A DNA stretch of 50,355 nt from assembly GCA_902500705.1 (NCBI GenBank), contig CABVRR010000015.1:1-50355 (forward strand). The letters run 5' to 3'. Within the stretch, counting starts at the first letter, position 1; the number at the start of each line of letters is the position of its first letter. The position numbers and the translations under genes are program-made. Below the pieces are notes generated by a model. That model saw only the letters and a program-made list of their open reading frames with translations. It had not been told where the DNA came from and made no database searches. Positions 16,364 to 48,228 of the stretch are shown one piece after another. The stretch comes from an uncultured Nitrospira sp. Its GTDB lineage: Bacteria; Nitrospirota; Nitrospiria; Nitrospirales; Nitrospiraceae.

Positions 16364-16393
16364 ATGTTTTTCACCCTCACGGTTATTGTGTAA

Positions 16394-16558: not shown

Positions 16559-16714
16559 TTAGCAGGTTTGTATTCGGCAATCCGGAGCTGACACTCCTAG
16601 AGAATGAGCGCCCAACATGTTGGAGAGAAAAGGCGATTGAAGAGAGTAACTTTCCCCAACACTTGGGCAAACAAAGAGGATGGAGAACAGGACAAGACCG
16701 ATCACTTCTTTCAT
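16559..16714 (-). CDS. Short secreted peptide (51 aa), possibly frameshifted
   Basis: A near-perfect ribosome binding site (AAAGGAGG) precedes an ATG that opens a classical signal peptide (MKEVIGLVLFSILFVC). The frame then gives only about 30 more residues and ends DCRIQTC. An overlapping minus-strand frame continues to 16452 with LLIVARTGGHAEVSAFLLVD and a C-C-Y-E-P-Y end. The gene may therefore be a longer secreted protein broken by a frameshift, or a genuine Cys-containing small peptide. It lies behind the carbonic anhydrase on the same strand. No family is recognised. Confidence 0.4.
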   Translation of the reverse strand: MKEVIGLVLFSILFVCPSVGESYSLQSPFLSNMLGAHSLGVSAPDCRIQTC

Positions 16715-17145
16715 GAGACCTCCTTTTAATGATGAGTAGATGATGAAATGGGCTGGAGAGGGGGCAACGGCATCCGCCTTCTCCCTGAGACGACTAGCAT
16801 GAATAGAGCAGCATTTATGCGAAGCCATGCAACGGCCCTGGCGCATCACTCATGGCACGGACAGAAGCTTCTCGACCGTGGTTGTGGCAGCATGGCACCA
16901 TGCTGTTGACACAGGACGGATCGATCAAGCAGATGGTTGGACGAATCTCCTGGTCTTGCCGGCCAGCATTGACGGTACAGATGCCGCACGTGCGCACCTG
17001 GGCTTCACAAGAATACTCTGGCATGTACCTGCGTAGGTGCGCAACGTAAGCGGTTAGCACATCACCTCTCGGTCTAGGAGGTCTTCTCGAGTCAGCACAG
17101 CGCTTGGCAACGCAGGATCAATGAGAATATCAATGGCCTGCTCCG
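16715..17145. other. Intergenic stretch, no certain gene
   Basis: About 430 bases between two minus-strand genes. The best open frame (16815-17060, minus) contains several cysteines (TCGIC, SCVNS, PCCHNHG) but has no ribosome binding site or signal peptide, so I do not call it. No hairpin or repeat stands out. Confidence 0.35.
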
Positions 17146-17844: not shown

Positions 17845-18690
17845 GGCGAATCTCCTTAAATTATATTGCTGAGCGGAACGGTGAGGCTGTTCTTGCTTCG
17901 CACGTCCAACCTGCATGACGATTGTTGGGATCGCTCAAATGACACGTTCCATTGTGAGTCTTCGGTCAGTGCCTTGTGCAAAGTGTCTGCCTAGTTCTGC
18001 GTATGAACAGACGTGTTGCACCGATTCAAATGAATCTCAGTATTTAGAATGATGAGGGGACTATTTTTCTGATTTTGTGCGGGTGGGTAGCCGCACAGAC
18101 ATCATGCGGAAAAAGAAGAAGAGAGCGAAACCGCACAGGTCATACGGTGCGCAATAGTAAAATGACGACCGCGTGTCGATTGGGATTCCCGCCACAATTC
18201 ATGTGATTCCGTTCTAGTCGCCGACAAAATCCATCCAAAAGAGCGAATTCGCACTGTGCGTTAAGGGCGAAATAGCACCTTTTATATTGATTCTGCGTTT
18301 TCCACTTTGTCATAGTAGGGACCGCTTAGAGCCTGGGAGGTGCCATTCGTAAGTCCGGTCTAGACACTCTGGACAGACCGGACGAAGGAGCCCGTACCGT
18401 GTATCTCCAGACTGACTCATCAACCCTTCCTCAACATACAACTCTGACAGTGGAAGCATCGCTGGTCAGCCGGCGCGTATCACCATCGGTCATCAGCATA
18501 TGTGATGGGTCACTAAGCGTCTCAGGCCTTACAAGAGGAATGGGAATGTTATTAAGGGTCTTGTTTTTTACATTGATGCTTCTGGTCTAGGCCGCGGTGC
18601 ACACGCAGCCGATCGGATGAATAACCGTCACTCAGTCGTGTGCATATTGGTGTGACGGGCACTCGTGAGCTGAAGTGGAAAGGACACGGA
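17845..18690. other. Long intergenic region with a hairpin and a doubtful short frame
   Basis: This stretch separates the divergent Slp and outer-membrane genes. It contains two inverted repeats, one at 18076-18097 (TGTGCGG/CCGCACA) and a stronger one at 18353-18383. A GTG-initiated 63-codon frame at 18399-18590 has GAAGGAG upstream but ends at a TAG right after a hydrophobic segment, so it is not called as a gene. Promoters for both flanking genes should lie here. Confidence 0.45.
18353..18383 (+). promoter_or_regulatory. Perfect 9-bp hairpin upstream of the outer-membrane gene
   Basis: GTCCGGTCT and AGACCGGAC are exact inverted repeats around a 13-base loop. GAAGGAG and a GTG codon follow immediately, so the hairpin may sit in a leader RNA. 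No T run follows, so it is not a standard terminator. Confidence 0.35.
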
Positions 18691-19686
18691 ATGCGATCGA
18701 GGGTTTTGTTTTTGATCGTAATTGTTTTGCTGGGAGAAATATCGCCGGCATTAGCCGAATGGTCGGTTACGGCGAGCGGGAATATTTTCTACACAGATGA
18801 CGTGGCCCTGTTTTCGGCGACGCGGCGATCAGGCCTTGACGGCGATCCTTCCCAGCCCGTCTTGGATTCCACTCGGACCGGACTCGGGTCCGACATGGTC
18901 TTTGAGCCGGGATTCCTCATTGCCAATGGGATCACCACGAGCTTGGGCCGCACGGTCTTCTCCATCAAGCCCCAAGGGTTTATTTATGCGGTGAATCCTG
19001 AATGGAGCCAAGCCAGCGTCGCCCTCGAGGTGTTACATGCCTTTACTCCCAACACGGCACTCCGACTTCGCTACTTTGCGGCTCCCGACCAGCTCCTTGG
19101 GAATAGTGAAGTGAGTCGTGCCGAACCGGAAGTGTTCGCGAGCGAGAGAGTGACCTCCCATGTCGGATACATCAGGCTCGAACAGCGATTGTCGGAGAAT
19201 TGGGAGTTCCGATTACAAGGGCGAGTTGGAAAGCGGCTCTACAACGAGGCCTTCGCCAGACGCAATACGACATTTTGGACAATCGGCCCCCATGTGTTTT
19301 GGCGGGTTAGAGAGCATCTCAGGCTCTTTGCCGGCTATCAGTTTGAACGAGGGCTCGCAAACCATCGGCACGACTTCGAGGCCGAAGAAGACAATTCTTA
19401 CGTCCATCATTTTGTCGCGGTCGGCCTGGATGCTGAGCTCATGCCGCATCTAGAGTTGGAACTAGACTTTCACTACGAACGAAACAATTGGAGCAGTGGA
19501 ATTCGTGGCGATGAGCGAAACGGGGAACATGAGAACATCTTTCAGGGAACCGGGCGCCTTCTTTACCAGCTAACAGACAGCACGGCAGTGGCGTTGTACG
19601 TTCAGAGGGCAAATCGTCGGGTGAATATTCACCAGACAGTCGATCACAACACCAACGTGGGAGTTGGAGTCAATCATCGGTTTTGA
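18691..19686 (+). CDS. Outer-membrane beta-barrel protein
   Basis: The 331-residue precursor has a signal peptide (RVLFLIVIVLLGEISPALA) followed by repeated amphipathic beta strands. It ends in VGVNHRF, with the terminal Phe typical of proteins folded by BamA. The start WSVTASGNIFYTDDVALFS and strands such as RLFAGYQFERG suggest a barrel of roughly 14 or more strands. I recognise no specific porin or receptor family. The ATG at 18691 has AAAGGA upstream and opens the signal peptide; an in-frame start at 18640 would bury it. It lies just before the tandem carbonic anhydrases on the same strand. Confidence 0.8.
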   Translation: MRSRVLFLIVIVLLGEISPALAEWSVTASGNIFYTDDVALFSATRRSGLDGDPSQPVLDSTRTGLGSDMVFEPGFLIANGITTSLGRTVFSIKPQGFIYAVNPEWSQASVALEVLHAFTPNTALRLRYFAAPDQLLGNSEVSRAEPEVFASERVTSHVGYIRLEQRLSENWEFRLQGRVGKRLYNEAFARRNTTFWTIGPHVFWRVREHLRLFAGYQFERGLANHRHDFEAEEDNSYVHHFVAVGLDAELMPHLELELDFHYERNNWSSGIRGDERNGEHENIFQGTGRLLYQLTDSTAVALYVQRANRRVNIHQTVDHNTNVGVGVNHRF

Positions 19687-30370: not shown

Positions 30371-30676
30371 TCAAATCAATTCTCGACAGGGAAATGAGAA
30401 GAGCTTAAAGGGAATGGGGCGTCCTTGTGAATGCTTCAAGCGCTCGGCATGAAAGTTTTTCAACGCGCTGGTGATTTTATCCACCTGATCATCCTGAAGC
30501 ACAGCGATGATCACGGAATTCCTTCCAGGGTAGAAGAACGATCCGACCACATTCCCTGTTTCTCCTTTTCCCGTGGCGTTATCGATGAGAGTATACGCGC
30601 TGATACCGCTTTCGCGCATGGCCTCTTCCAGATCATTGGTCATTGACGAACGAAACACGATCAATAGTGCGACCAT
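30371..30676 (-). CDS. PII-like signalling protein
   Basis: The 101-residue protein has the beta-alpha-beta ferredoxin-like pattern of the PII superfamily: MVALLIVFRSS, an acidic helix, ISAYTLIDNATGKGETG (the T-loop-like segment), NSVIIAVLQDDQVDKITSAL, and a C-terminal strand. It lacks the uridylylated Tyr loop of GlnB/GlnK and resembles the shorter PII-like proteins that sit beside transporters. AAGGATG lies before the ATG. The SulP anion transporter and an efflux operon are its neighbours, so it may regulate transport in response to nucleotides or bicarbonate. Confidence 0.75.
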   Translation of the reverse strand: MVALLIVFRSSMTNDLEEAMRESGISAYTLIDNATGKGETGNVVGSFFYPGRNSVIIAVLQDDQVDKITSALKNFHAERLKHSQGRPIPFKLFSFPCRELI

Positions 30677-32261: not shown

Positions 32262-34016
32262 TTGGAAACAGCACACACATCGAAATCAGACAGCCCGCAA
32301 AACGGAATCTCAGGACTGAAGTTCTGGCGGAACGATCTCTTGGCAGGTCTACAGGTCGCGCTGCTTGGGCTCCCGCTTTCCTTGGGCATTGCTATAGCCT
32401 CAGGAGCCCCTCCGGTCGCGGGTCTGATATCCGCCATCATCGCGGGGTTTGTCTTCCCCCTTCTTGGTGGTGCCTATATTACGATCTCAGGTCCTGCAGT
32501 AGGACTAGCGCCTGCATTGCTGGCCGGCATGTATGTACTCGGTCAAGGAAGTTTGGAGGTGGGGTACCCGCTTGTGCTCGTGGCCGTTTGTCTCTCCGGC
32601 GGTCTTCAGGTGTTACTGAGTATCTATGATGCCGGACGACTTGCCATGTATTTCCCAAGTTCTGTTCTCCAAGGCATGTTGATGGCAATCGGGATCCTGG
32701 TCATTATCCAGCAGCTACCGGCTCTCCTCGGCCATCAGGTTCCTTATACGAATGACGTGCTAGGCGCGCTTGGTCGGCTCCCCGATCAAATCGTGAATCT
32801 CAACCTGCAAGTGTTTGCCGTCGGATTTGTCGCTGCTGTAATTCTCTTCATCTTCAATAGTACTCAGATCAAAGAGCAGTTTTGGGCGAAAACCATTCCT
32901 GCCCCACTGCTCGTCGTTATTTGGGGAGGACTCGCCGGATGGTTCTTGCAGTTCCCCTCGGAATATCTGATCTCGGTTCCGGATGAAATTCTGCAACAAG
33001 GCGTGCGCTTCCCAGATTTTGTCTCCGCCTGGACACATCCGGAGCTCTGGATCACGCTCTTGGTCACGGTGGTCATCCTCACTCTGATCAACACGACCGA
33101 GTCCTTGGTCACCCTCCGTGCGATTGATAAAATTGATTCCTTCAATCGTAGGTCGGATCCCAATATCGCGCTGCGAGCAATGGGGGTGTCCACTTTGCTC
33201 TCTGGTTTGGTCGGAGGGTTAATGATTATTCCAGGAGGAATAAAAAGCACAGCCAACATGCTTGCTGGGGGGAAAACGTTATGGGCGAATACATACTATG
33301 CTGGATTCACGGCAATTATCTTATGGTTCGGGAGCGCACTGATCAATCGAATTCCCCTCGCTGTCTTAGCCGCTCTGCTTATTTTCGTCGGTTGGAAACT
33401 CTGTAATCCATCGATTGTTCTCCGCATTTTGAGGGTTGGGAAAGAACAGATCGTCATCGCCCTTGCGTGTGTTATAGTCACCCTATTCACATCAAATCTC
33501 CTCATTGGAGTGTTGATGGGAGTTCTGACGAAAGTCGTTCTTCTTTTTTACGATGTGGTGAGAGCGTTATCGTTTGATTCGCGCTTCCGCCCAATCACTC
33601 AGGACTTCTTTTCCACGTATCTCACTGAGTCCCTAAAAGAACTATTCCGTGATCCCGTCATTCGTATCGGAGACGGTCGAATCTCGGGTGAACCTTCGCT
33701 CATGATCTGTGAGTCGGGGAGCCACATGCGTCATCCCTATAAAATTTATCTCTCATCGATCAGCTGCATGAACGTCTTGAAGCTTGATGCACGTCTCCGA
33801 GAGTTCTTGGCGGATGTTCCCCCAAAGCACGATTTGATGCTGATCCTACGTGGGCACGTGGTAGACCACACAGCCATGGAGTATTTGTGCTATTTTCGCC
33901 AGTACTGTTATCAGGCAGGATATAATTGCATTATCGTCGGGAACGAGTACTTTATTCCTTATTCAACCCATGCATTGGCCTACCGGGTGAATCACGCTCA
34001 TGAGAACGCGGCCTAG
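32262..34016 (+). CDS. SulP family anion transporter with STAS domain
   Basis: The 584-residue protein has about 12 membrane segments with SulP signatures: DLLAGLQVALLGLPLSLGIA, ISGPAVGLAPALLAGMYVLG, LVTLRAIDKIDSFNRRSDPN and GGLMIIPGGIKSTANMLAGG. A C-terminal STAS-like domain follows (about residues 480-575). SulP members carry sulfate, bicarbonate or other anions. The nearby carbonic anhydrases, PII-like gene and DAB operon make bicarbonate a plausible substrate, but sequence alone cannot decide. The start is a TTG with a GGGAGAAG upstream. It is preceded by a long non-coding stretch. Confidence 0.88.
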   Translation: METAHTSKSDSPQNGISGLKFWRNDLLAGLQVALLGLPLSLGIAIASGAPPVAGLISAIIAGFVFPLLGGAYITISGPAVGLAPALLAGMYVLGQGSLEVGYPLVLVAVCLSGGLQVLLSIYDAGRLAMYFPSSVLQGMLMAIGILVIIQQLPALLGHQVPYTNDVLGALGRLPDQIVNLNLQVFAVGFVAAVILFIFNSTQIKEQFWAKTIPAPLLVVIWGGLAGWFLQFPSEYLISVPDEILQQGVRFPDFVSAWTHPELWITLLVTVVILTLINTTESLVTLRAIDKIDSFNRRSDPNIALRAMGVSTLLSGLVGGLMIIPGGIKSTANMLAGGKTLWANTYYAGFTAIILWFGSALINRIPLAVLAALLIFVGWKLCNPSIVLRILRVGKEQIVIALACVIVTLFTSNLLIGVLMGVLTKVVLLFYDVVRALSFDSRFRPITQDFFSTYLTESLKELFRDPVIRIGDGRISGEPSLMICESGSHMRHPYKIYLSSISCMNVLKLDARLREFLADVPPKHDLMLILRGHVVDHTAMEYLCYFRQYCYQAGYNCIIVGNEYFIPYSTHALAYRVNHAHENAA

Positions 34017-35634: not shown

Positions 35635-37566
35635 ATGCAAATGGGATCCAAATACAGGCTATTCAATGATCTCCCGATTCTCCCCAAACTGCTGCTGATC
35701 CCAGTGGTGCCGCTGCTTTTCCTCCTCCTGCTAGGCACGATGACCTACATGGGTGTTCTGACATTTTTTGACGATGAAGAACGATTGAATGCGAGCTATG
35801 TCCTTCAGAAGACGGCTGCCCAATACATGCGATCAGTAGCCGATCTAGAAACCGCGTTCCAGGGATATATCATCACAAAAAACGAGCGGTACATGCAAAG
35901 TTTCGCAGAGGGAAAGACTACGCTCCTTGCTTTCGAGCGGGAATTGGCCGGAAGACTCCCCGTTGAAGAAGATCAACCATTCAGAGAGCTTCACAAGCTC
36001 GTCACGCAATATGTCGCGGAAAAGGAGAAATACATCCACAACGTCCAAGCTGGATCCCCTGCAGAAGCGGTTCGATACATTCAGAGCGGGAAGAGCAGGG
36101 AGATGATGGTCGAGATTCGCAATTGGATGACGCGGTTCGATCAGTTGGAGCGGCAAACGACGAAGGCGGAGTTGGCACAATTGAGCTACGATCAGAGCTG
36201 GGCGATTGCTATCATGTTGATCGGTGCGGTGGTCACCCTTGCCCTGGTCATCGTGGGGCAAGCCTATATCGCACAATCAATTGCGGCTCCTCTCGTCGAC
36301 TTATCGAAGATGGTGAGCTCAGGGAACGGAGAGACGATTCCCGTCATCCCTTCACTCGATCGCAAAGACGAAATCGGCGAGCTGACGAGAGTGATGGGAA
36401 ACATGAGCTCCCGGATCCGCCAGGATATGGAAAAACTCCAACAATCGGCATACGCACTCAAGAAACTCAATGCCTACTTGTCTACTTCGGAAGCCAAGTA
36501 TCGCGGCCTGGTGGATCACGCTCCGGTGGGTATCGTGATGACGAAAGGAGTGAAAATCACATTCAGCAACCGCTACAACCAACAGCTGGCTGGCCTCGAC
36601 CCCGAAGAGGAAGTCGCACCGGCCACATTTCTCCAGCGTATTCATCCCGAGGAACGAACCAGTGTGCTGACGACTCTGGCCCAAGCTGTTGCCGAAGGGC
36701 GGCCCTGTGAAACGATCTTCCGCTTCGTCCATGAGGACGGAAATGTTCGAAAGATTTTAAGCCGCCATGTACCGATCATGGATTTTGATTCTTCCGATAT
36801 CATCTATATGGGGTTCAATATCGATATCACTGCTCTCGAGAGTTTGCAGGTGCGTTTGAACCGGGCGGAAAATCTCGCGACATTGGGACAGGTCGCTGCG
36901 GGTATCGCGCATGAACTCAGAAACCCTTTAGTCGGCATCGGCTCGACGGCCAAGGTTCTGCTGGACGACCTCGAAGCCAACGATCCAAAACTGAAAGAGG
37001 TCGAAGCGATTCTGTCGGAGACTCGGCGGTTGGATCGGATCGTCAATGAAATCGTCGACTTTGCACGTGTCCGCCGCTTGACCCCGACAGAGGTCGATCT
37101 CGTCCAACTTGTGGATGAGGTGTCGAAACTGATGAAGGTGAGATTGGACGAGAAAGAACTCTCCATTAAGACGAATGTTTCTCCCATGATCAGCGAGATT
37201 CATGCAGACCGTGACCAACTCAGGCAGGTGATTTTGAACATCGTGCACAATGCGATTGACGCGACGCCACCGAGAGGTGGTCCTATACAGATCACCGCGG
37301 ATGAATTATTCCGCGAAGACAGGCCAGGGATCATGATTCAGGTAAAGGACACCGGACAGGGAATCCCACCAGGTCTTATCGGACAAGTATTTCAACCGTT
37401 TGTCACGGCAGGAAAACGCAGCGGGACAGGATTAGGTCTGGCGATTTGCAAGAATATCATTGAAGCTCATGGGGGCGATATTTACGTCACCAGCGAAGTC
37501 GGAAAAGGGACGATTCTCGGTCTGTGGATGCCGCTCGAGCAAGAGCCAACCTCAACGAAGGTTTAA
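35635..37566 (+). CDS. Membrane-bound sensor histidine kinase
   Basis: The 643-residue protein has an N-terminal membrane segment (about 15-40), a helical extracellular CHASE3-like domain (AAQYMRSVADLETAFQGYII), a second membrane segment (about 188-212), HAMP, and a PAS domain (about 285-400). The HisKA motif follows with His426 in GIAHELRNPL, then an HATPase domain with N-box NIVHNAIDATPP, DTGQGIPPG and GTGLGLAICKNIIE. It should phosphorylate one or both neighbouring response regulators. The stop overlaps nothing, but the next ATG is only 4 bases away. The signal is unknown. Confidence 0.92.
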   Translation: MQMGSKYRLFNDLPILPKLLLIPVVPLLFLLLLGTMTYMGVLTFFDDEERLNASYVLQKTAAQYMRSVADLETAFQGYIITKNERYMQSFAEGKTTLLAFERELAGRLPVEEDQPFRELHKLVTQYVAEKEKYIHNVQAGSPAEAVRYIQSGKSREMMVEIRNWMTRFDQLERQTTKAELAQLSYDQSWAIAIMLIGAVVTLALVIVGQAYIAQSIAAPLVDLSKMVSSGNGETIPVIPSLDRKDEIGELTRVMGNMSSRIRQDMEKLQQSAYALKKLNAYLSTSEAKYRGLVDHAPVGIVMTKGVKITFSNRYNQQLAGLDPEEEVAPATFLQRIHPEERTSVLTTLAQAVAEGRPCETIFRFVHEDGNVRKILSRHVPIMDFDSSDIIYMGFNIDITALESLQVRLNRAENLATLGQVAAGIAHELRNPLVGIGSTAKVLLDDLEANDPKLKEVEAILSETRRLDRIVNEIVDFARVRRLTPTEVDLVQLVDEVSKLMKVRLDEKELSIKTNVSPMISEIHADRDQLRQVILNIVHNAIDATPPRGGPIQITADELFREDRPGIMIQVKDTGQGIPPGLIGQVFQPFVTAGKRSGTGLGLAICKNIIEAHGGDIYVTSEVGKGTILGLWMPLEQEPTSTKV

Positions 37567-37570
37567 TGCC

Positions 37571-38959
37571 ATGCGCGCGATGGTTTTCGTAACAGATGAT
37601 GAGCAGGTCATTCGTACCGCGATGGTCAAGCGGCTGGTCAGACAAGGACATCACGCCGTCGGATATGAATCCGGTGAGGCGCTGATGGACGCGTTACAAC
37701 ACAAGCACCCAGACCTTGTGTTGCTCGACCTCAAAATGCCCGGCATGAACGGTCTTGAGGCGCTCAAGCATATTCGTCACCTGGCTCCCTCCGCGCTGGT
37801 CATCATGTTGACTGCCTATGGATCAGTACAGGACGCTGTGGAGGCGATGAAGTTGGGGGCCTATGATTTCTTGATCAAAACCGTTGATCTTGAGGGACTT
37901 GATGCGGTGACGGCTCGTGCTCTTGACATGTTGAAGCTTCGACGTCGTCTGGACGCGGAGCTCAGCGGGCAGGCCAGTCAATTCCATTTAAATACCCTCG
38001 AAGCCCATAGTCCAGCAATGAAGCACTTGCTGGAGCAGGTTCGTGGAGTTGCGGAAAATCCAAAATCCTCCGTCATGCTGCTGGGTGAAACCGGCACAGG
38101 AAAAGAATTTCTCGCACGAGTCATCCATCATAACGGACCGAGAGCGTCGGGGCCGTTTGTGGGAGTCAATTGTACTGCTATTCCAAAGGAACTCTTTGAG
38201 AGCGAACTGTTCGGGTACGAGCGAGGGGCGTTTACCGGCGCGAATCAGCGTAAGCTCGGTTTGCTCGAAAAAGCAGAAGGAGGAACCCTTTTTCTCGACG
38301 AAATCGGCGATCTTGACATGTCAATGCAGGCCAAACTACTGCGCGTGATTCAAGAGCGTTCGTTCAGAAGGCTCGGAAGTACCGATGATCTGGGTGTCGA
38401 TTTTCGCCTGATCACGGCGACAAATCGGGAAATTAAGAAAGATGTGGAACGCGGATCATTTCGCGAGGATCTCTACTTTCGCCTTAACGTCGTCGCCTTT
38501 GAAATTCCGCCCCTGCGCAAGCGCACAGAAGATATTCTGCCACTCTGCCAACGGACGATTGTGCGGTTCGCTCAGGAGTTCGGTAAATCGGTTCCCGAGC
38601 TTGATAATGAGGCCCGTCTGGTCTTGGAGCACTATCAATATCCGGGGAATATTCGAGAGCTTGAGAATATCATCGAACGGGCGATGATCTTTTGCGCCGG
38701 ACAACTGTTGACGGCCGATTACCTACCCAAGGAATTGCACGACACCATCAAGCAAACAGCTACCGCTGTCTCGGTGGGAGAAGAACGGCTCATCCGCATT
38801 GAAATGCATGTGGGGAAACAAACACTTGAGCAAATTGAAGAATCGATTATAGAAGAAACGTTACGTCTCGCAGACTACAACAAGAGTCTGGCTGCCAAAC
38901 AGCTAGGCCTCACTCGATTTTCGTTGGATCGACGTTTGAAAAAATATGGTGAAACATAG
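37571..38959 (+). CDS. Sigma-54-dependent response regulator (NtrC/AtoC type)
   Basis: The 462-residue protein has a receiver domain (Asp53 in LLDLKMPGMNG) and a complete AAA+ domain with Walker A GETGTGKEFLARVIHH, intact GAFTGA followed by NQRKLGLLEKAEGGTLFLDE, sensor ITATNREI and arginine finger GSFREDLYFRLN. A C-terminal Fis-type helix-turn-helix follows (LADYNKSLAAKQLGLTRFSL). It should activate sigma-54 promoters after phosphorylation. The start at 37571 follows the kinase by 4 bases; the frame extends back into the kinase gene but those residues are out of family. It is clearly the functional sister of the degenerate protein two genes upstream. Confidence 0.93.
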   Translation: MRAMVFVTDDEQVIRTAMVKRLVRQGHHAVGYESGEALMDALQHKHPDLVLLDLKMPGMNGLEALKHIRHLAPSALVIMLTAYGSVQDAVEAMKLGAYDFLIKTVDLEGLDAVTARALDMLKLRRRLDAELSGQASQFHLNTLEAHSPAMKHLLEQVRGVAENPKSSVMLLGETGTGKEFLARVIHHNGPRASGPFVGVNCTAIPKELFESELFGYERGAFTGANQRKLGLLEKAEGGTLFLDEIGDLDMSMQAKLLRVIQERSFRRLGSTDDLGVDFRLITATNREIKKDVERGSFREDLYFRLNVVAFEIPPLRKRTEDILPLCQRTIVRFAQEFGKSVPELDNEARLVLEHYQYPGNIRELENIIERAMIFCAGQLLTADYLPKELHDTIKQTATAVSVGEERLIRIEMHVGKQTLEQIEESIIEETLRLADYNKSLAAKQLGLTRFSLDRRLKKYGET

Positions 38960-39076: not shown

Positions 39077-39415
39077 TTAAGCGGTAGGTCGTTTCTTCCC
39101 GAAATACTCCTGTCGCCCGACGGCCACGTCGGCGACGTACATGAAGCCGGAATGCCGCTCGAAAAGCGGACGGAGACCGGCGAGAATCGGCTCGACTTTG
39201 TCTTCCGGCACGACCGTGAGAATCATTTCGAGGCTTTCCTGCTCACTGAACATAAAGTGCGCCTCGCGGACACCATGGTGACCCTTCCCGGAAATATTGC
39301 CGATGATCGTGTAGCCGGACGCTTTGACTCGATCCAGCAGATCGGTGACGAAGGAGCGGTGTTCTCCTGCGATGATCACTCGAATTTCTTTCATCGGATG
39401 TAAAGTCAGTCCCAT
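39077..39415 (-). CDS. PII-like protein of the inorganic-carbon uptake operon
   Basis: The 112-residue protein shows the PII-type core: MKEIRVIIAGEHRSFVTDLLDRV, GYTIIGNISGKGHHGVREAHF, SLEMILTVVPEDKVEPILAGL and a C-terminal beta segment. PII-like proteins next to DabA or bicarbonate transporters are known, and some bind adenine nucleotides and bicarbonate; that function here is inferred. It is the last gene of the operon, 46 bases after dabA. The start at 39415 is placed by AAAGGAG at good spacing; a GTG six bases earlier is too close to that site. Confidence 0.82.
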   Translation of the reverse strand: MGLTLHPMKEIRVIIAGEHRSFVTDLLDRVKASGYTIIGNISGKGHHGVREAHFMFSEQESLEMILTVVPEDKVEPILAGLRPLFERHSGFMYVADVAVGRQEYFGKKRPTA

Positions 39416-39461
39416 CAGCACACTCCTTTCTTCACGTGTAGTCTGTGCAGGTCTGTCACGG

Positions 39462-42400
39462 CTACGACGACGGTTCTATGACGTTCCATACTCCATTCGG
39501 ATGATATCGATACCAGCCCCCGTCTTCAGGATCGAGCGCGATAAGATGAACCCACTGGTTATGATAGAAGTGCTGTAAAACCTCATGCCGCGCAATCAAT
39601 TTCTCGATCCGGGCACGGGGCGTCTCCACGATGGTCAGCAGCCGCATCGGCTCATGGTAGGGCGCCTCGCTGTTCATGACGGTTTGTCGGGCCAGCCCAA
39701 GCCGGAGATCGCTCCAGGGGCCGGACATGATGCCGAGCCGACCGACGACATTGTGGTAGATCTTGCTTCCGCTGCCGTACACATCGTTGTCGACGGCGGA
39801 GAAATAGTGTTCCATGTTGATCCACTGCGCCACGACCTGTGGGGCCGTGAGCAACACTTCAAGCAGTCGATTACTCGGGTCTTCTCGATAATTGTACGAG
39901 TGTAGGAAGACACGTCCTTCCAGGTCCAACCCTTTCGTGAGCTCCCGTCGTCCGATCAAGAACGACGTATTGTTCGACAGACCCCACTCTGGCCTGACTT
40001 GGCTCCAGTCGACGCTTCGCCTACGAACGTGTGCTTCAGCGGTTGCCTCAGGGAGCACCTGCTGAATATCGGGAAACCGCGCACAGCGTTCCTGGCTCGT
40101 CAGTCCCGAGGCGTCTTTGAGGTCTTCCTGCAGCCGAACGAGGTCTGCCCGGTGTGTCGGTGGTACGTCTTCCAAGTCGAAGAGCTGCACGGCGTCGGTT
40201 GTCGTATCCATTTGTCCGGCCAAGAAATGCGTATCGGACGGAATGTCGATCCGCAATTTGGCGAGTCGCTTGCGAACTTTGGGGTTGTTCGCCATCATCG
40301 CGAGGGCACGAGCGTTGGGTTTCCCCTCATTGCCGCCACAGGCTCCGCAATCGAGGGCAGATTCATAGGGGTTGTTATCTGATGTGCTCCCATGGGCGCA
40401 GAAAAGAACGAGCCGCGCGAAGTTCTTCGTTAGTCCCATCATTCGGAGCGCGGTGTCGACGGTCAGGGCTTGCTCCTCCACGGTGAAACCGGTTCTGGTC
40501 AGCCGCTCTTTATGTCGTGATGCGGACCGCGCCGTCAGATCGTATTGCCGACGCAGAGTCTCAATAAATGGGTTGATCGCCTCAGGCGCAAGGCCGGCTC
40601 GTTCAATTTCTTCGGCCGCGATCGGTGGCTCCGGGTCGCCTTCTATGGTCAATGCGCGCTGACGTAAGCCTTCGACAAGAGCCGGCGTGATACGGGAACT
40701 ACGAAGTCCGAACTGCTCATGCAAGGCCTCTCTGATCACAGCTTGCTGTTCCGCTTCGAGCATTTCGGCGGTTTCGCCAGGGGCCAACTTGTCGATCGTC
40801 AGCGTGGTGGCCAATGACGGAACGAACAGGCGCTTTAACCAGGCGGTCCAGCGGTGATAGAGCGCTGGGATCAATGTCTTGCCGAAAATCGGCAGACCAT
40901 AAAACCAGCCCAGCGATTCCACCATGACATAGGGAGTGACCACGTTTTCTTTCAGGTCGTGCAAGAGGGTATGCCCCGCCTGCACCCACTTGGCTCGAGC
41001 CGCGTGCAGTGAGACCTTATGATCGAGATAGCTGCGCGGAATTTCGCGTACCTCGTTCTTTGCCCGCATGATCACGGGGAACTGTTCCGTATCATGTTCC
41101 TTTCCCCAGGCTCGATAGCGGATGAAGGCGGCAAAGAAGCCGGCGAAGCCATAGGTTTCATGCGGGCCGACCGATTCGAGATGGCGGCGGAACGGTTCGG
41201 AGCGCACGTCGATACAGTAGACGGACTGCGAGTACGGACGCGTCGTCTCAACGGAAGCCACAGGCACGGTATGCGCCCGTAAGCGCGACAGCAGCTGTTC
41301 CTGGTAGCCCGCCTCCAGGGCCGTGAGCCAGACCGGTCCATGGTCCGATTCGGGGAACGCCTCTATCCAGTCGACGACTTGCTTGAGTTCCGTAGGGGAG
41401 CTCTCGATAAGAGCATCGACATCGATGGCCAATGAACGGGCCAGGGCGAGAAGCCTGCGGACGGCCCCACGGCGAACGGCTGCTTGCAGTTGGGGAATGA
41501 CGTCAGTACGGTACCGAACGAGGATATTGTTCCAGCTTTGCCCTTTCCGATGCGAAAGCCGATCGACTTCCTCGGCATAGAGAGCGGGCAATCGCCCGGC
41601 CACCCGCTGTCGTCGAAGATAGTATTCTTCGGGATAGTCACGCATATAGGCCGTCACGGCCTCATACCGCCCGTCGATGCCGAGATAGTCCTTGCACGCT
41701 TGTTGAACCAATTCATTCGCGTACCAGAGACGAATCGCCAAAAACTTGACCAGGCCGACCGGGTGCGCTTGCTGCCACGGGTACTCCCGTTCTTCTCCAC
41801 GCCACTTAATGAATCCGGCCCAACCGGGCAGCGCGGTCAATTGCAACGACAAGTAATCTTGTAATAGTTCGGAGGGAATGCCCAGCGAATCTAGGCTTTT
41901 CAGAAGTGCGTCTTCGGGATAGTCCGGCAGCTGTGCGATCTTCCTGCAGCTATCTTTGATTCCGCAGGGAGACCATTCGTGGGAGGCCATGGCCCGCCAG
42001 GCTTCGTACAGTCCCTTTTCACGGTTCGGCATGACCCATGTGGCATGCCCTTCGTCCAGAAACGCACCGCACCACTTGATCATCTGTTCGTTGATCTGCT
42101 GGACGATCTGTGTGCCGAGCGTATCGTCGCACCAGTGCGACAGCGTGAGCCATCGGCACAGCGAGGCTTGATTTTCATCTACGACTTTGCGGATGCGATC
42201 CTCCAGTGAAAAAGGAAGGAGGACAAGTTCCAGCTTCCGGGAGAGTGCGTCGATCAGCGGCCTGTCGGGATCCTCAAGCTGATGATCGAGCGGTTCCATG
42301 GACGGCGCGCACAGGCCGTCAACCAGGCAGGCACGCAAGACCGAGCCGTGCGTCACGGTATGTGATCCGATCGTCACGTGTTTATCGATGATGCGTGGTT

Positions 42401-42674
42401 TCAGCGCTTCCTCAATGTGAGACGACTGAATTCGGCCGGTCTGGAGGTACGCTCGATACAGATGGCTGGGAAGGTAACCGTTGCCGCCCATGAACTGTTT
42501 TCCGCGTTTGACGGCTTCATCAAACGGCAAATATTCGATGCTGTGGAGCGGATTATGGTGGACGAAGGTCCGCATCGGCCAATACTGCGCAATGACTTCC
42601 CCCGCAAGGCGGACGACCCCGCGCAATTCCATTCGCCGAGATTCAATATCGGTGAGGTGCGTCAGCGGTTCCAT
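39462..42674 (-). CDS. dabA: Inorganic carbon transporter subunit DabA (DUF2309)
   Basis: The 1070-residue protein is a DabA/UPF0753 member. The beta-carbonic-anhydrase-like zinc site is present: Cys487 and Asp489 (YCIDVRSEPF), His761 (CAHGS) and Cys776 (DCGACGG). The His-Cys spacing of 15 matches the characterised DabA of Halothiobacillus. It is longer than that protein, with extra length between the Cys and His motifs. DabA is thought to hydrate CO2 at the membrane, driven by its DabB partner, giving one-way bicarbonate accumulation. Its start overlaps the upstream NuoM-like gene by 13 bases. Confidence 0.93.
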   Translation of the reverse strand: MEPLTHLTDIESRRMELRGVVRLAGEVIAQYWPMRTFVHHNPLHSIEYLPFDEAVKRGKQFMGGNGYLPSHLYRAYLQTGRIQSSHIEEALKPRIIDKHVTIGSHTVTHGSVLRACLVDGLCAPSMEPLDHQLEDPDRPLIDALSRKLELVLLPFSLEDRIRKVVDENQASLCRWLTLSHWCDDTLGTQIVQQINEQMIKWCGAFLDEGHATWVMPNREKGLYEAWRAMASHEWSPCGIKDSCRKIAQLPDYPEDALLKSLDSLGIPSELLQDYLSLQLTALPGWAGFIKWRGEEREYPWQQAHPVGLVKFLAIRLWYANELVQQACKDYLGIDGRYEAVTAYMRDYPEEYYLRRQRVAGRLPALYAEEVDRLSHRKGQSWNNILVRYRTDVIPQLQAAVRRGAVRRLLALARSLAIDVDALIESSPTELKQVVDWIEAFPESDHGPVWLTALEAGYQEQLLSRLRAHTVPVASVETTRPYSQSVYCIDVRSEPFRRHLESVGPHETYGFAGFFAAFIRYRAWGKEHDTEQFPVIMRAKNEVREIPRSYLDHKVSLHAARAKWVQAGHTLLHDLKENVVTPYVMVESLGWFYGLPIFGKTLIPALYHRWTAWLKRLFVPSLATTLTIDKLAPGETAEMLEAEQQAVIREALHEQFGLRSSRITPALVEGLRQRALTIEGDPEPPIAAEEIERAGLAPEAINPFIETLRRQYDLTARSASRHKERLTRTGFTVEEQALTVDTALRMMGLTKNFARLVLFCAHGSTSDNNPYESALDCGACGGNEGKPNARALAMMANNPKVRKRLAKLRIDIPSDTHFLAGQMDTTTDAVQLFDLEDVPPTHRADLVRLQEDLKDASGLTSQERCARFPDIQQVLPEATAEAHVRRRSVDWSQVRPEWGLSNNTSFLIGRRELTKGLDLEGRVFLHSYNYREDPSNRLLEVLLTAPQVVAQWINMEHYFSAVDNDVYGSGSKIYHNVVGRLGIMSGPWSDLRLGLARQTVMNSEAPYHEPMRLLTIVETPRARIEKLIARHEVLQHFYHNQWVHLIALDPEDGGWYRYHPNGVWNVIEPSS

Positions 42675-43975
42675 GCGAGTGACTGCTCCATGACGGCGGT
42701 CGTGGGGGCGGCCTGATCCGGTGCGTACAAGCTGGTTGGAGCCAGGCCCAGAGCCAGCAAGGCGAGTACCACGATCAAGAGCGACGTAAATTCAGGATGC
42801 CGAAGGTCGGCATAGCGTAAATCCGGCCGGCGAGTGCCGAAGAGCAACTGTTGCACCATCTGCATGATATACCACGAGGCGGCCAGCCACGCCGTCAGCG
42901 CGATGAACAGGCCGATGGTCGACGAGGGAGGTGTGGTCAACAGCAACCCCATAAATCCCGCGAATACGCCGAAGGGCGGGAGTCCCATCGCCGCCAGGCC
43001 CAACAGAGAAAAGAGGACCGCATATTTCGGCATCGCCGCCGCAAGACCACTGATGGCCTGCGGATCCACATCGTCTCCGTATCGCGTGCGGATCACTTGC
43101 CAGGCGATCAACAGTCCGCCGGTCGCGAGGCCGACGGCTCCGGCCAGCACCGCCGCGCGCGGTGTCGCCTGGTGAGCCCCGGCGACAAACCACCAGAGAA
43201 TCGAGAAAAACGAGACGCTGCCGTAGCCGAGCAACAGACGGACTCGTGACTGAGCCAATGCTTTGATCGCACCGTATAATGAGCTCACCAAGGCCATGAG
43301 GCTGACGACCGCCACGAATTCATTCGGCATCGTCGGCATGGCCGTCGCCAGTCCGTGAAGGCCGAGTATCGGCAACAGCAACACAATGAACGGCGGCAAG
43401 CTTCCCGGCAGTCTGGTCAGCGCCGTGAGGTATCCATCATGAAACGGCATGAGCGGCAACAGCACGGCGCAGGTCGCCAGGGAAGCCACTGATGAGAGGG
43501 GCGGATCGACGATAAGAGAAAGCCCCGCGCCTACGACACCGACACCGAAGGAACCGATGCCCCACCAGGAGATGGGCCAGAGGGTCGTGTGATGCCGGTA
43601 CAACAGGAACATCAAGATCAGCATGAGCACGATCAGGCACAACGGGCCGAACACAGTCCCGGCAGTAAGGACACCCATTCCCAAACCAAGAAAGAGCAAG
43701 ATCATGCTCCAGGAAAGTCGGTGCTGTTCATGAACCGGCTGACCTAATGCGGACACCACGGCGGCGATGGGAAGCACATAGAGCGGTAAGAGACCATCAG
43801 GCAGCGTCGGAATCGGAATCAGATTGGCGATCGCCACGGTCAACGTGAGGGTGATGACAGAGCACATGATGGCCGTCATCTTCACGCGGTAGGGATCAGA
43901 CCAGACGGCCAGACAGACGAGGGCACCCGCGAACGGCATGCCGACGAACAACCAGGGTATGAACAGCTCGATCAT
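42662..43975 (-). CDS. NuoM/MrpD-like proton-conducting membrane protein
   Basis: The 437-residue protein is hydrophobic throughout, with 12 or more membrane segments and antiporter-like motifs such as LPLMPFHDGYLTAL, RLLLGYGSVSFFSILWW and MGLPPFGVFAGFMGLLL. It is shorter and more divergent than complex I NuoM and lies far from any nuo operon, so it is more likely a third ion-translocating subunit of the DAB system. The ATG at 43975 overlaps the upstream stop as ATGA. It is followed without a gap by dabA. Function within the complex is inferred. Confidence 0.8.
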   Translation of the reverse strand: MIELFIPWLFVGMPFAGALVCLAVWSDPYRVKMTAIMCSVITLTLTVAIANLIPIPTLPDGLLPLYVLPIAAVVSALGQPVHEQHRLSWSMILLFLGLGMGVLTAGTVFGPLCLIVLMLILMFLLYRHHTTLWPISWWGIGSFGVGVVGAGLSLIVDPPLSSVASLATCAVLLPLMPFHDGYLTALTRLPGSLPPFIVLLLPILGLHGLATAMPTMPNEFVAVVSLMALVSSLYGAIKALAQSRVRLLLGYGSVSFFSILWWFVAGAHQATPRAAVLAGAVGLATGGLLIAWQVIRTRYGDDVDPQAISGLAAAMPKYAVLFSLLGLAAMGLPPFGVFAGFMGLLLTTPPSSTIGLFIALTAWLAASWYIMQMVQQLLFGTRRPDLRYADLRHPEFTSLLIVVLALLALGLAPTSLYAPDQAAPTTAVMEQSLAWNR

Positions 43976-45678
43976 CGAGACCACCCACGTTCCAGCTTAT
44001 CGATTCGATGAACCAACTGCGCGGTCGTCGAGCCGATCAGTTGATAGAGCTCATCGGCATACAGTCGATTCAGGAATACCGTATAGAGTCGCAGGCGTAG
44101 GCTTTCGATCCAGGTCGGCATCCAGACCGTCCGACCGTGGGCGCGCAGGTACAGATAGCTCCAGCCGAAGATGGTCATGAGCGCGGCCATCACAACAATG
44201 ACGTCGAAGAGCCAGTCCGGAATATCGGCGGTCTTAAAATATGACGCCACTTCGCTCGGGTCGGGGTAGAGAAACGCAGTGAACGACTCAACGGCGAACA
44301 GATACACGAACACGGTGAAGAGAAGTGTCAGCAGCATAGCGGCGGAGACTTTCCACGAGGCGACGGCACGCAATCGTGTCAGCGTGAGAATCGCCTGCGA
44401 GGACGTGATCCAGATAAAAAAGAGGATGATAACGGTTCCTTGAGATTCCAGCAATGGGATACGCAGCACACCATGCGTGACCAATAAGATCAGCAACGGA
44501 ATAAACAGAGTCGTCACAAATCCGGTCGACCAGGTCAGGCGAGAAAATCCTGTTTCCTCATCTTCATGGCTCGTAGGAGGGAAGTGCGGTTCCTGTCTTG
44601 CCTTGTGGATGACATTGCCACAGTTGAGGAATACCGTGGCCTTGAAGAGACCGTGCGCAATCAGATGAAATACGGCCAGCGAGAAGGCGCCCAAACCGCA
44701 TTCCATGATCATGTAGCCCATTTGCCCGATCGTCGAGAAGCCGAGCGTCTTCTTGATGTCGTTTTGCGCCAGCATCATCGTCGCGCCAAGGACGGCCGTC
44801 AGGGTACCGACGACGAAGGCCATGTGCAGGGTGGTTGAGCTCAGGCCGAAGAGCGGCGCCAGACGGTTGATGAGAAAGCCCCCCGCATTGATGATGCCGG
44901 CGTGCAGTAAGGCGTGAACAGGCGTGGGAGCGAACAGCGAGCCTGGCAGCCACAGATGCAACGGAAACTGAGCGGACTTCCCCATCGCACCGATAAAAAG
45001 AAGGAAGGTCACAGCCGTGGTGGCGTTGACGTCGAGTCCTGGGAGAATCGAGAGTGTCATGGGGGTGGCAGCCGCCCTAGCGAATAGCTCGTGAAATTCG
45101 AGCGTGCCATAGAGTTGGTAGGCGAGGGCAATGCCGCCCAGAAACGCCATATCGGCGATACGCAGCAACGTAAAGGTCTTGAACGCACCCGCCAACGTCG
45201 CGGAGTGAATGTGATTGTGCGCAAGGAGATAAAGCAGGTAACTCAAGATCTGCCAAAAGAGAAACAGCATCATGAGGTTTCCGCTCGAGACCATGCAGAT
45301 CAAAACGAAGTCGGTGAGACAGATCAGCACCAGATACCGACGCGCATGACGATCCTGATACATATAGCGCGTCGAGTAGCAGTAAATAATGGTGCTGACA
45401 CCCGTGATCAGCGTCATCATGACCGCGCTCAGCCGATCAACGTAGAACCCGAGGGGAATAATGAATGACGCGACGGAGGACGGATCGTAGAGCCGAACCG
45501 TGACGGGACCTTGGGACGTGACCAAGACCAGTGTCCCGATGGCGCCTAGGAATGCCAGACCGATAGGGTAAGCAGCCAACTTCGCGCGGGTGACACGCGG
45601 CGTCTCGCCGCCGATCATCACGATACCGGCGGCGACCAAGAGAAGGCAAGGAACGATGAGGACTAGCGACAGGAGCAT
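43972..45678 (-). CDS. dabB: NuoL/DabB-like ion-translocating subunit, copy 1
   Basis: The 568-residue protein has the proton-conducting antiporter core with the ion-path Lys and His residues in GKSAQFPLHLWLPGSLFAP, then TPVHALLHAGIINAGGFLINR, and about 14 membrane segments. A C-terminal lateral part ends in LYLRAHGRTVWMPTW. NuoL-like DabB proteins couple the ion gradient to DabA. The neighbouring dabA and absence of other nuo genes support DabB over complex I. It closely resembles the next gene upstream, and its stop overlaps the NuoM-like start. Confidence 0.85.
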   Translation of the reverse strand: MLLSLVLIVPCLLLVAAGIVMIGGETPRVTRAKLAAYPIGLAFLGAIGTLVLVTSQGPVTVRLYDPSSVASFIIPLGFYVDRLSAVMMTLITGVSTIIYCYSTRYMYQDRHARRYLVLICLTDFVLICMVSSGNLMMLFLFWQILSYLLYLLAHNHIHSATLAGAFKTFTLLRIADMAFLGGIALAYQLYGTLEFHELFARAAATPMTLSILPGLDVNATTAVTFLLFIGAMGKSAQFPLHLWLPGSLFAPTPVHALLHAGIINAGGFLINRLAPLFGLSSTTLHMAFVVGTLTAVLGATMMLAQNDIKKTLGFSTIGQMGYMIMECGLGAFSLAVFHLIAHGLFKATVFLNCGNVIHKARQEPHFPPTSHEDEETGFSRLTWSTGFVTTLFIPLLILLVTHGVLRIPLLESQGTVIILFFIWITSSQAILTLTRLRAVASWKVSAAMLLTLLFTVFVYLFAVESFTAFLYPDPSEVASYFKTADIPDWLFDVIVVMAALMTIFGWSYLYLRAHGRTVWMPTWIESLRLRLYTVFLNRLYADELYQLIGSTTAQLVHRIDKLERGWSR

Positions 45679-45801
45679 GTCATCTACCAGATCAGTGAAC
45701 AGTATCGGTCTTCCTCTTAATCAGGCAATGGAGCATCCTCCTGCCACGATAGAAGGCTAACCATTAATACGGGGTCCCTATATTCGTCAAGCCGACGTCG
45801 A

Positions 45802-47505
45802 TCACAGCGAGCGTTCTTGCGCGCGCTTATCCATGCGCTGAATGACGGATGTCAAGATGTGGCCCACTCGATATAAGATGGTATCCACATAGAGTCGATT
45901 GACAAACAGGACATAGAGGCGAATCCGAAGCCCGTCGATCCACGGCGGGGTCCAGACGGTCCGGCCATGGGCCCGCAGGTAGAGATAGATCCAACCGATA
46001 ATCGTCACTGATGTCGAGAGTACGAGGAGCAGGTCGAAGAGCCAGTCGGGGAGATCGGCAGCCTTGAAGTAGGAGGCCACCTCGTCCGGGTCGGGATACA
46101 GGAACGCCGTGAACGATTCGACGGCAAACAAATAAACGAACACGATGAACAAGAGCGTCACCAGCATCGCGGCGGAGACCTTCCACGAGGCCACTGCGCG
46201 CAATCGTGTCAGTGTCAGGATTGCTTGCGAGGACGTGATCCAAATGAAAAAGAGAAAGATGACGGTACCCTGAGATTCCAACAGGGGGATTTGTAGCACG
46301 CCATGAGTCGCCAGCAGGATCAGTAAGGGAATCAGCAGAGTCGTGAACACCCCGGTCGTCCACGTCAGGGGTGAATACCCCTCTTCCTCTACCTGATGTC
46401 CGGCGTGCGGCATGAGTGGTTCTTGTCTCGCCTTGTGAATGACATTTCCGCTGTACAAGAAGACCGTCGCTTTGAACAGACCGTGTGCAATCAGATGAAA
46501 TACGGCCAGCGAGAAGGCGCCCAAGCCGCATTCCATGATCATGTACCCCATCTGGCCGATGGTCGAAAAACCAAGCATATTCTTAATGTCGTTTTGCACC
46601 AGCATCATCGTGGCGCCGAGGACGGCCGTCACCGTGCCGATAACGAGGGCGATATGTAATGTGGTTGAGCTTATTCCAAAGAGCGGCGCCAGACGGTTGA
46701 TGAGAAAGCCTGCAGCGTTGATGATGCCCGCATGCAGCAAGGCCGTCACAGACGTCGGGGCATAGAGATACCGAGGGAGCCAGCCATGGAAGGGGAATTG
46801 GGCCGACTTACTCATGCCGCCGACAAGAAGCAGCAAGGTCACGGCCGTCGCGCCGTCGAATTCGACGCCAGGAAAGAGGGACACGGTCGCCGTCGATTGC
46901 GCGGCGACGGCAAACAGGTCAGGAAATTCCAGCGTGCCGTACAGCGAGTACGCCAGCACGATTCCACCCAAGAAGGCGACATCCCCGACACGTAACAACG
47001 TGAACGTGCGGAACGCGCTCTTCAGCGTTTCTTGGTGGCTATGGTTATGGACAAGGATATAGAGGAGATAACTCAGCAGCTGCCACAGCATGAACAGCAT
47101 CAAGAGATTCGCGCTGGACACCATGCAGAGCAGAACGCTCACGGTGAGCCCGATCAAGGCGAGATACCGGCGCTCATGCACATCTTGGTACATATACTCG
47201 ACGGAGTAGGTGTAAATGATCGTGCCGATGCCGGAGATCAACACCATCATGACCGTGCTCAACCGGTCGACGTAGAGGCCGATCGGCAGGGCCAACACGG
47301 TGGACGCGTCCGGATCGTACAGTCGAAGCTCAATCGGGCCTTCCGTGGCCACCACGTACAGCGTGACGATGGCGCTGCAGAAGGCCAAGCCGATCGGCCA
47401 GGCAGCGATTTTCGCACGAGTCTGGCGTGTGGCCTCGCTGCCGACACTTACGATCAGCGCGGCAATCAGTGGAAGCAGCGGCACAAGCAATACAGCTGAC
47501 ATCAT
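45802..47505 (-). CDS. dabB: NuoL/DabB-like ion-translocating subunit, copy 2
   Basis: This 567-residue protein is the tandem paralogue of the next gene. Shared stretches include YMYQDVHERRYLALI-type segments, the core GGMSKSAQFPFHGWLPRYLY, TSVTALLHAGIINAAGFL and WITSSQAILTLTRLRAVASW. Most of the C-terminal half is near-identical between the copies. It is the first gene of the minus-strand operon and follows a structured leader. GAGGTG precedes two consecutive ATG codons (47505 and 47502), so the exact start is uncertain by one codon. The reading from 47532 is unlikely because it would enter the terminator-like hairpin region. Confidence 0.85.
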   Translation of the reverse strand: MMSAVLLVPLLPLIAALIVSVGSEATRQTRAKIAAWPIGLAFCSAIVTLYVVATEGPIELRLYDPDASTVLALPIGLYVDRLSTVMMVLISGIGTIIYTYSVEYMYQDVHERRYLALIGLTVSVLLCMVSSANLLMLFMLWQLLSYLLYILVHNHSHQETLKSAFRTFTLLRVGDVAFLGGIVLAYSLYGTLEFPDLFAVAAQSTATVSLFPGVEFDGATAVTLLLLVGGMSKSAQFPFHGWLPRYLYAPTSVTALLHAGIINAAGFLINRLAPLFGISSTTLHIALVIGTVTAVLGATMMLVQNDIKNMLGFSTIGQMGYMIMECGLGAFSLAVFHLIAHGLFKATVFLYSGNVIHKARQEPLMPHAGHQVEEEGYSPLTWTTGVFTTLLIPLLILLATHGVLQIPLLESQGTVIFLFFIWITSSQAILTLTRLRAVASWKVSAAMLVTLLFIVFVYLFAVESFTAFLYPDPDEVASYFKAADLPDWLFDLLLVLSTSVTIIGWIYLYLRAHGRTVWTPPWIDGLRIRLYVLFVNRLYVDTILYRVGHILTSVIQRMDKRAQERSL

Positions 47506-47522: not shown

Positions 47523-47580
47523 GAAAACACAAAAGCCAACCATCGGCTCGATGCAGGATCGAGACACGTTCGGTTGGCTT
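47523..47580 (-). terminator. Terminator-like hairpin in the leader of the DAB operon
   Basis: On the minus strand AAGCCAACC pairs with GGTTGGCTT (9 bp), with an inner CTCGAT/ATCGAG hairpin, and TTTTGTGTTTT follows directly. This has the form of an intrinsic terminator, yet it lies only about 18 bases before the first start codon of the operon and downstream of the probable promoter. It has no T run on the plus strand, so it is oriented toward the DAB operon. It is therefore a candidate attenuator. Confidence 0.55.
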
Positions 47581-47587
47581 GTACTGC

Positions 47588-47616
47588 GACCGGCCTCTTC
47601 TCGTGAATTGCCGGTC
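47588..47616 (-). promoter_or_regulatory. Leader hairpin 2
   Basis: GACCGGC and GCCGGTC form a perfect 7-bp stem around a 15-base loop, just upstream of the terminator-like hairpin in the DAB leader. It may compete or stack with neighbouring elements. Confidence 0.45.
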
Positions 47617-47650
47617 ACCCTACGGCCCGTCAGTCAAGAACCAGGTGCTC

Positions 47651-47712: not shown

Positions 47713-47741
47713 GAATAATATGGAGGACAAGAGAGCGTCAA
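47713..47741 (-). promoter_or_regulatory. Probable promoter of the DAB operon
   Basis: On the minus strand TTGACG (47741-47736) is followed by TTATTC at 17 bases or TATTAT at 15 bases. Transcription would start near 47706, leaving a leader of about 200 nt that contains the three hairpins before the first ATG. Confidence 0.45.
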
Positions 47742-47883
47742 GTCAGAAATGACGGACCAGGGCTTCCATCCTGCACGGTTCGGACTCGAAGGACCTAGAA
47801 CCTATCGAGAGAGAGAAACAAAAGACCTACGATGACACTTGTTCATCTCGTTGCAGGACCGTATAATTCTGCCGCACAATCTT

Positions 47884-48228
47884 ATGGAAAACGCAGTACG
47901 TAACGCCATCATCAAGTTTGAGCAGGAATTCATGGGACGCGGTCCCGATGAAGTGCGTGCGTGCATCGTGCGGGACTTGGTCGTGGTCCGGCTCAAGGGC
48001 GTGCTCACCCCGGCCGAGCGGCAGCTGGCAAAAACCGCAGAGGGGATCGAGATGGTGAAGCGGTTACGACAAACGCTGATCGTCTTGGGCCGCGACAAGC
48101 TCTGCGAGCAAGTCGGCGAAATCACCGGCGCCAAAATTCTGGGGGTATTCACCGATATCGACGTGCAGCTCGGAGAGCGCATCTTCGTCTTTACGATGGA
48201 TCGGGAAATCCAGAACGGGACAAGGTAG
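47884..48228 (+). CDS. DUF2294 family protein
   Basis: The 114-residue protein begins MENAVRNAIIKFEQEFMGRG and continues with PDEVRACIVRDLVVVRLKGVLTP, TPAERQLAKTAEG and the C-terminal KILGVFTDIDVQLGERIFVF. This is the DUF2294 pattern (sometimes labelled Na-translocating decarboxylase-associated), whose function is unknown. The ATG at 47884 fits the family start; the frame is open from a TTG at 47839. It is divergent from the DAB operon and shares its regulatory region, so a role in inorganic-carbon uptake or its control is an attractive inference. Confidence 0.82.
   Translation: MENAVRNAIIKFEQEFMGRGPDEVRACIVRDLVVVRLKGVLTPAERQLAKTAEGIEMVKRLRQTLIVLGRDKLCEQVGEITGAKILGVFTDIDVQLGERIFVFTMDREIQNGTR

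Follow-up and report, generated by a model that had tools for sequence, protein, structure and literature searches.

Does a gene cluster that surrounds a single DabA with three antiporter-like membrane proteins encode an enlarged ion-driven machine for inorganic carbon uptake, or a known complex with a duplicated part, and how is it switched on? The question is raised by a locus in a 50,355-nucleotide stretch of DNA from an uncultured Nitrospira sp. (contig CABVRR010000015.1 of assembly GCA_902500705.1), hereafter the window, for which a first-pass annotation proposed the enlarged machine. The answer turns on the following features.

39077..39421, minus strand: PII gene, encoding a CPII-like PII protein of 114 aa (PF00543, 72 bits)
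39462..42674, minus strand: DabA gene, 1070 aa, the long, DAB1-like form (PF10070, 888 bits)
42662..43984, minus strand: gene for the third DAB subunit (the 'NuoM-like' protein), 440 aa, a degenerate antiporter fold with the proton-path residues lost
43972..45678, minus strand: DabB copy 2 (L2), 568 aa (PF00361 and PF00662)
45765..45791, minus strand: promoter-like element CTTGACG-N15-TATTA before DabB copy 2
45802..47505, minus strand: DabB copy 1 (L1), 567 aa (PF00361 and PF00662)
47524..47580, minus strand: predicted intrinsic terminator of the leader (AAGCCAACC...GGUUGGCUUUUGUGUUUU), z = -4.4
47576..47627, minus strand: aptamer-like domain, z = -4.2, matching model R2 with E 2.2e-13; covariation reached by 0 of 500 shuffles
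47716..47742, minus strand: promoter-like element CTTGACG-N15-TATTA upstream of the leader, conserved in relatives
47839..48228, plus strand: MpsC-family gene (PF10057, 112 bits), divergent from the dab operon

The five minus-strand genes described by that annotation are real, as the Pfam matches and coordinates attest, with the PII gene last in the order of transcription (L1, L2, NuoM-like, DabA, PII); the operon was rightly assigned to the DAB type, and the two tandem NuoL-like paralogues are two copies of DabB, each with both Pfam domains. The gene overlaps hold up in part: short overlaps of 13 nt occur at two of the four junctions (L2/NuoM-like and NuoM-like/DabA), neither of them ATGA, whereas the other two are gaps, of 40 nt between DabA and PII and of 123 nt between L1 and L2, the latter containing its own promoter-like site. 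Overlooked were the divergent MpsC gene, which also lies beside the dab operon in most relatives, and a structured leader (47524-47633, minus strand). The top PDB match of the operon's PII protein is 5d4n ('nitrogen regulatory protein P-II'), which aligns over 101 residues with a score of 120 bits and is one of a series that we take to be CPII. The window's genome, 86% complete, contains one DabA and gave no RuBisCO match. The window also carries, no more than 17 kb away from the dab operon, a SulP transporter gene (32262-34016, plus strand), without a copy of the leader, and a second, divergent PII-like gene (30371-30676, minus strand). The genes for a CHASE3/PAS histidine kinase and a sigma-54 response regulator (35635-38959, plus strand) end convergently against the operon, and their homologues occupy the same place in loci L042 and L049.

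The zinc-site residues recognised earlier in DabA, namely, Cys487, Asp489, His761 and Cys776, are indeed present, and they are, along with R491, invariant across 95 aligned DabA proteins. The five correspond, in this order with R491 third, to C351, D353, R355, H524 and C539 of the zinc and active site of Halothiobacillus DabA2 (numbering of PMC13144422), and to judge by these residues the active site is intact. The finger glutamate of DabA2, Glu444, coincides in the multiple alignment with E586, where 83 of the 95 proteins have Glu and 10 have Asp; a pairwise phmmer alignment puts it at a neighbouring Glu instead, which makes the assignment less sure. Just one site of this type is seen in the window's DabA. 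The zinc site, the finger glutamate and the conduit residues of DabB discussed below mark the operon, as far as residues can, as one of the DAB, or DIC-accumulating, type, in which DabA would be a zinc beta-carbonic-anhydrase-like vectorial enzyme with its finger helix docked into one DabB. DabA takes several other forms in the loci compared. Proteins of about 1440-1463 aa (L048, L063, L066 and L235) have a long extra segment after the N-terminal part; locus L053 (8123-14873) has two tandem DabA genes preceded by a single DabB and a single third subunit, and accompanied by PII, in a genome (G052) that encodes five DabA proteins; and in six loci (L134 at 8075-19070, L040, L210, L211, L234 and L241), DabA lies inside Mrp-type operons, along with MnhE, MrpF, MrpG, MbhD/E and several NuoL/NuoM-like proteins. 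These last are a real expanded DabA-antiporter arrangement in this order of bacteria, unlike the operon in the window.

The NuoM-like protein had been counted as one of three ion-translocating subunits. Its relationship to NuoM stands (hhalign, 96.6% against E. coli NuoM), but the antiporter-domain match covers only positions 89-274 of 294, that is, the second half, at 35 bits, and the key residues of a proton-pumping subunit are gone: K234, K265, H322, H348 and E407 of NuoM give way, in every one of 32 aligned relatives, to L/M/I/A, P, F, V/I/M/A and F/L/Y, respectively. Because none of the charged or histidine residues examined in NuoM is retained, the protein is predicted to translocate no ions. 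Its identity emerges from a different comparison. The middle protein of Halothiobacillus DAB1-type loci is matched by hhalign at 91.8% (E 7e-7) with the NuoM-like protein alone and at 96.2% (E 2.5e-9) once the tails of fused DabB proteins are added. These fusions, of 873-909 aa, come from other classes of the phylum (L122, L126, L128 and L155) and consist of DabB joined to the third subunit, their last ~305 residues reaching 100% (E 4e-64) against the NuoM-like protein, 97.9% against the Halothiobacillus middle protein and 98.3% against E. coli NuoM. Compared directly, the Halothiobacillus middle protein and NuoM reach 0.4%, and the link between the two runs via the intermediates. The middle protein of one further locus, L130, could not be joined to the family (14%). 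Beside dabA, the gene is kept, as the first-pass annotation required, in each of the 28 genus loci with a readable upstream context, one- and two-DabB alike. By homology, then, the NuoM-like protein is the third subunit of a DAB1-type complex and not an extra pump, and the fusion supports one such subunit per DabB; the third subunit of DAB1-type complexes would thus acquire a structural identity, that of a dead antiporter half. Upstream of the fused DabB, L122 and L126 have a different hairpin/terminator leader (about ACAGCCUGAAGGAU...GUCGGCUUUUU), which may be another attenuator.

The second NuoL-like protein, to go by residues and trees, is a duplicated DabB that was later lost again by different routes. 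Both copies keep R175, D178, K229, H254, K305, H334, H338 and K342 of NuoL, and both have Gln at the position of NuoL E144. In the 28 genus loci with readable context, there are two DabB genes in 18 and one in 10, so the two copies are not required together. The two-copy state is nested within the DabA tree, where it was lost more than once. In the DabB tree, L1 forms its own clade, and the single DabBs of one clade of loci (L036, L037, L039, L047, L049, L055 and L159) group with L2; the single DabB of L058 groups with L1, yet its last ~80 residues are L2-like. Such a hybrid is the expected product of a tandem collapse, although an assembly artefact is possible. Since relatives with a single DabB exist, in the clade that keeps L2 and in the one hybrid, natural loss of one copy shows that one DabB is enough.

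These observations bear directly on the enlarged complex, in which one DabA would be served by two NuoL-like and one NuoM-like ion-translocating subunits at a higher ion:HCO3- coupling. The five genes are adjacent and kept as a set in 18 of the 28 loci, the whole conduit is retained in both DabB copies, and the DabA-Mrp operons elsewhere in the order do join DabA with several antiporter-like subunits; but the NuoM-like protein has no equivalents of the five NuoM residues, single-DabB relatives exist, and in DAB2 one finger with one Glu completes one DabB channel (PMC13144422), one such site being seen here. The expanded three-pump complex is accordingly rejected on residue losses and lineage losses of DabB, and we regard the larger complex in general as improbable. 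Nor was the underlying idea new: passages of the COGNAT study (2017, PMC5700660) already propose, for NuoL-YbcC(DabA)-PII operons, that how many ions are involved may depend on how many membrane subunits are present.

Why, then, two DabB genes? The regions of L1 and L2 around residues 320-360 and 400-480 are 92-95% identical, but recent gene conversion can be rejected: these blocks are equally conserved between species, and the low divergence between the copies therefore reflects constraint. That L1 and L2 have stayed distinct over many species suggests some specialisation. The two could form alternative DabA complexes used under different conditions, L1 being expressed under the attenuator described below and L2 from its own promoter. 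The promoter-like site before L2 is conserved in all 15 of the two-copy loci that belong to the window's clade, the leader is found only before the first DabB, and the two lineages remain separate despite the near-identical blocks; the other clade, however, has six two-copy loci, and no promoter-like site was found before L2 in any of them. We consider such alternative complexes a serious possibility, if one that falls somewhat short of an even chance. More generally, the tandem copies would be interchangeable paralogues, serving dosage or providing isoforms, each with its own promoter-like site.

Exact CTTGACG-N15-TATTA sites occur twice in the window, compared with 0.1 expected. A sigma-54 promoter of the operon was rejected, there being no TGGCAC-N5-TTGC site in the dab intergenic regions. 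Between the conserved upstream element and the first dabB lies the leader, of ~110 nt, which in the relatives' loci, too, accompanies the first DabB only, with no instance upstream of L2. The aptamer-like domain folds into P1a (GGC/GCC), P1b (GUA/UAC), an internal loop (GG/AG) and P2, and the 3' part of the leader is the terminator with its T-tract. In an alignment of 39 leaders, all of which precede dabB and which partly overlap the 41 copies considered below, GUAGGG is invariant and CAGURC-NN-GCCA nearly so. Among 57 distinct leaders, a stem and T-tract equivalent to the terminator are present in all, and P1a, which has only 3 bp, can form in 56, with a variable junction of 0-3 nt. Because the GCC strand is common to P1a and the terminator, the aptamer and the terminator are predicted to be mutually exclusive. 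In the free minimum-energy folding of the window's leader, the terminator conformation is favoured over the P1a fold by 7.3 kcal/mol; from this we infer a default OFF state and an ON signal, and switching would need a real stabiliser. By default, the GCC strand would join the terminator and transcription would stop; when a signal stabilises the aptamer-like domain, the GCC strand would close P1a, the terminator would lose its base and the genes would be transcribed.

The helices of this fold are supported by covariation. For 34 diverse aptamers, none of five covariation measures was reached by any of 500 shuffles, nine base pairs have changed on both sides, and a shift of the partner strand by 1-3 columns lowers pairing from 91% to 25-48%; P2 pairing amounts to 0.883 in the 57 distinct aptamers and to 0.788 +/- 0.011 once strands are swapped among sequences. 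The leader thus combines a conserved, covarying 5'-UTR RNA structure with an expression platform that is, by prediction, exclusive with the aptamer, as in riboswitches. Comparison with Rfam 15 yielded no family for the window at gathering thresholds and none for the leader region at E up to 5, and the search over the other leader loci gave one sub-threshold chance match only; a limited literature search found no mention of an inorganic-carbon riboswitch. The leader RNA is, apparently, undescribed. A T-box was considered and rejected, UGGN not being conserved in the leader and Rfam giving no T-box match.

The distribution of the RNA connects it to carbon uptake. Of 296 genomes of the phylum, 86 have a match to model R2, which was built from the aptamer only; the 86 belong to one order (families f1, f2 and f33). 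The model has no match in 299 Pseudomonadota genomes. With model R1, the window's genome has one convincing copy (E 1.7e-30; the next has 0.012); reverse-strand echoes that this model gave at positions 53-100, owing to the near self-complementarity of the terminator, were ignored. Among 41 copies with downstream genes read, a set that covers part of the R2 matches, the leader precedes dabB in 12, a SulP transporter in 11, dabA in eight (including weak matches of 24 and 30 bits in L207 and L211) and an MnhE-F-G Mrp cluster, of the kind that accompanies dabA, in nine; Mrp genes follow in six of the eight dabA cases. The one exception, L204, is a weak, degenerate match of 38.9 bits without the aptamer, and no carbon gene was found downstream of it. 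Two loci, L134 (where the downstream gene families were Pfam-checked) and L234, have three separate leaders, before SulP, dabA and MnhE. Found ahead of SulP, dabA and dabA-associated Mrp operons alike within one order of bacteria, the RNA would define an inorganic-carbon-uptake regulon.

How might such a leader be read? That it is a mere constitutive terminator or hairpin that regulates nothing is exceedingly improbable: termination is, indeed, the thermodynamic default, but a plain terminator needs no near-invariant GUAGGG/CAGURC-NN-GCC domain, the 3' strand of which is the 5' strand of the terminator in 57 of 57 leaders, and would not occur before carbon-uptake genes only (the weak L204 match aside). 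An attenuator run by an RNA-binding protein, a tRNA or ribosome stalling, rather than by a metabolite, is a more substantial alternative, if still an unlikely one. Protein-dependent attenuators can resemble such leaders, P1a is short, the aptamer is small, and the RNA is confined to one order; by contrast, near-invariant loop strands (GUAGGG and CAGURC) around covarying helices typify ligand-binding RNAs, and the T-box results speak against a tRNA. The leader is, on its sequence features, a strong candidate riboswitch for inorganic-carbon uptake. Going further, it could represent a new riboswitch class that senses either HCO3-/CO2 or a metabolite reporting directly on the demand of carbon fixation, and that turns on the dab, SulP and DabA-Mrp systems for uptake in this order of bacteria, a tentative proposal to which we give a limited chance in this full form. 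As the leader precedes four kinds of carbon-uptake gene, its ligand, which like the switching and its ON direction is something we infer, would reveal the carbon-supply signal of these autotrophs.

Taken together, these data lead to an interpretation that we consider probable: the locus would encode a DAB1-type complex with one DabB and a non-pumping third subunit, with DabB duplicated and with an attenuator leader that defines a carbon-uptake regulon. It builds on what can be read directly in the alignments and annotations, namely, gene identities, conservation of residues and RNA, covariation, the terminator and gene association. The complex would be driven by the PMF and hydrate CO2, the third membrane subunit would complete it, the CPII-like protein encoded downstream would probably tune it, and the first promoter of the operon would drive the leader RNA as a transcriptional attenuator.

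Set beside the known systems, the operon has its closest counterpart in DAB1 of Halothiobacillus neapolitanus, a three-subunit system with a small membrane protein, hneap_0908 (PMC13144422), between DabA1 (hneap_0907) and DabB1 (hneap_0909). The order DabB, middle membrane protein, long DabA, PII is shared with the DAB1-type loci of Halothiobacillus and Guyparkeria (L162-L167), from which, rather than from H. neapolitanus itself, it was taken, and in which a ~250-aa protein precedes a ~1050-aa DabA; the middle membrane proteins are homologous by hhalign, giving the same three-subunit composition. The differences are the third subunit, 440 aa here versus about 250 aa, the duplication of DabB, the adjacent divergent MpsC gene and the attenuator leader. 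DAB2 of H. neapolitanus (PDB 9rd0/9rd8/9rd9), for which cryo-EM supports a PMF-driven vectorial carbonic anhydrase (PMC13144422), shares the DabA zinc site, the finger Glu and the DabB cytoplasmic conduit residues, but has two subunits, a shorter DabA and, at the position of NuoL E144, has Ile in DabB2, proposed to favour proton flow (PMC13144422), in place of Gln. The 'clade B' NuoL-YbcC-PII operons in the COGNAT passages (PMC5700660) are of the same type as that in the window, and those passages contain no analysis of the third subunit, DabB duplication or an RNA leader. DIC transporters of reductive-TCA autotrophs, including 'Nitrospirae', are noted in a 2024 minireview. The PII protein resembles CPII by sequence, with 5d4n as its best PDB match, but CPII is, by the title of the paper (Wheatley et al. 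2016), carboxysome-associated, whereas the window's genome has no RuBisCO match. Finally, although it matches no Rfam 15 family, the leader resembles terminating riboswitches in its aptamer-like domain with invariant loops, in the exclusivity of P1a with an intrinsic terminator and in the presence of several transport genes of the same pathway downstream. The operon, then, is of a known kind, with a duplicated subunit, and the surprising part is its leader.
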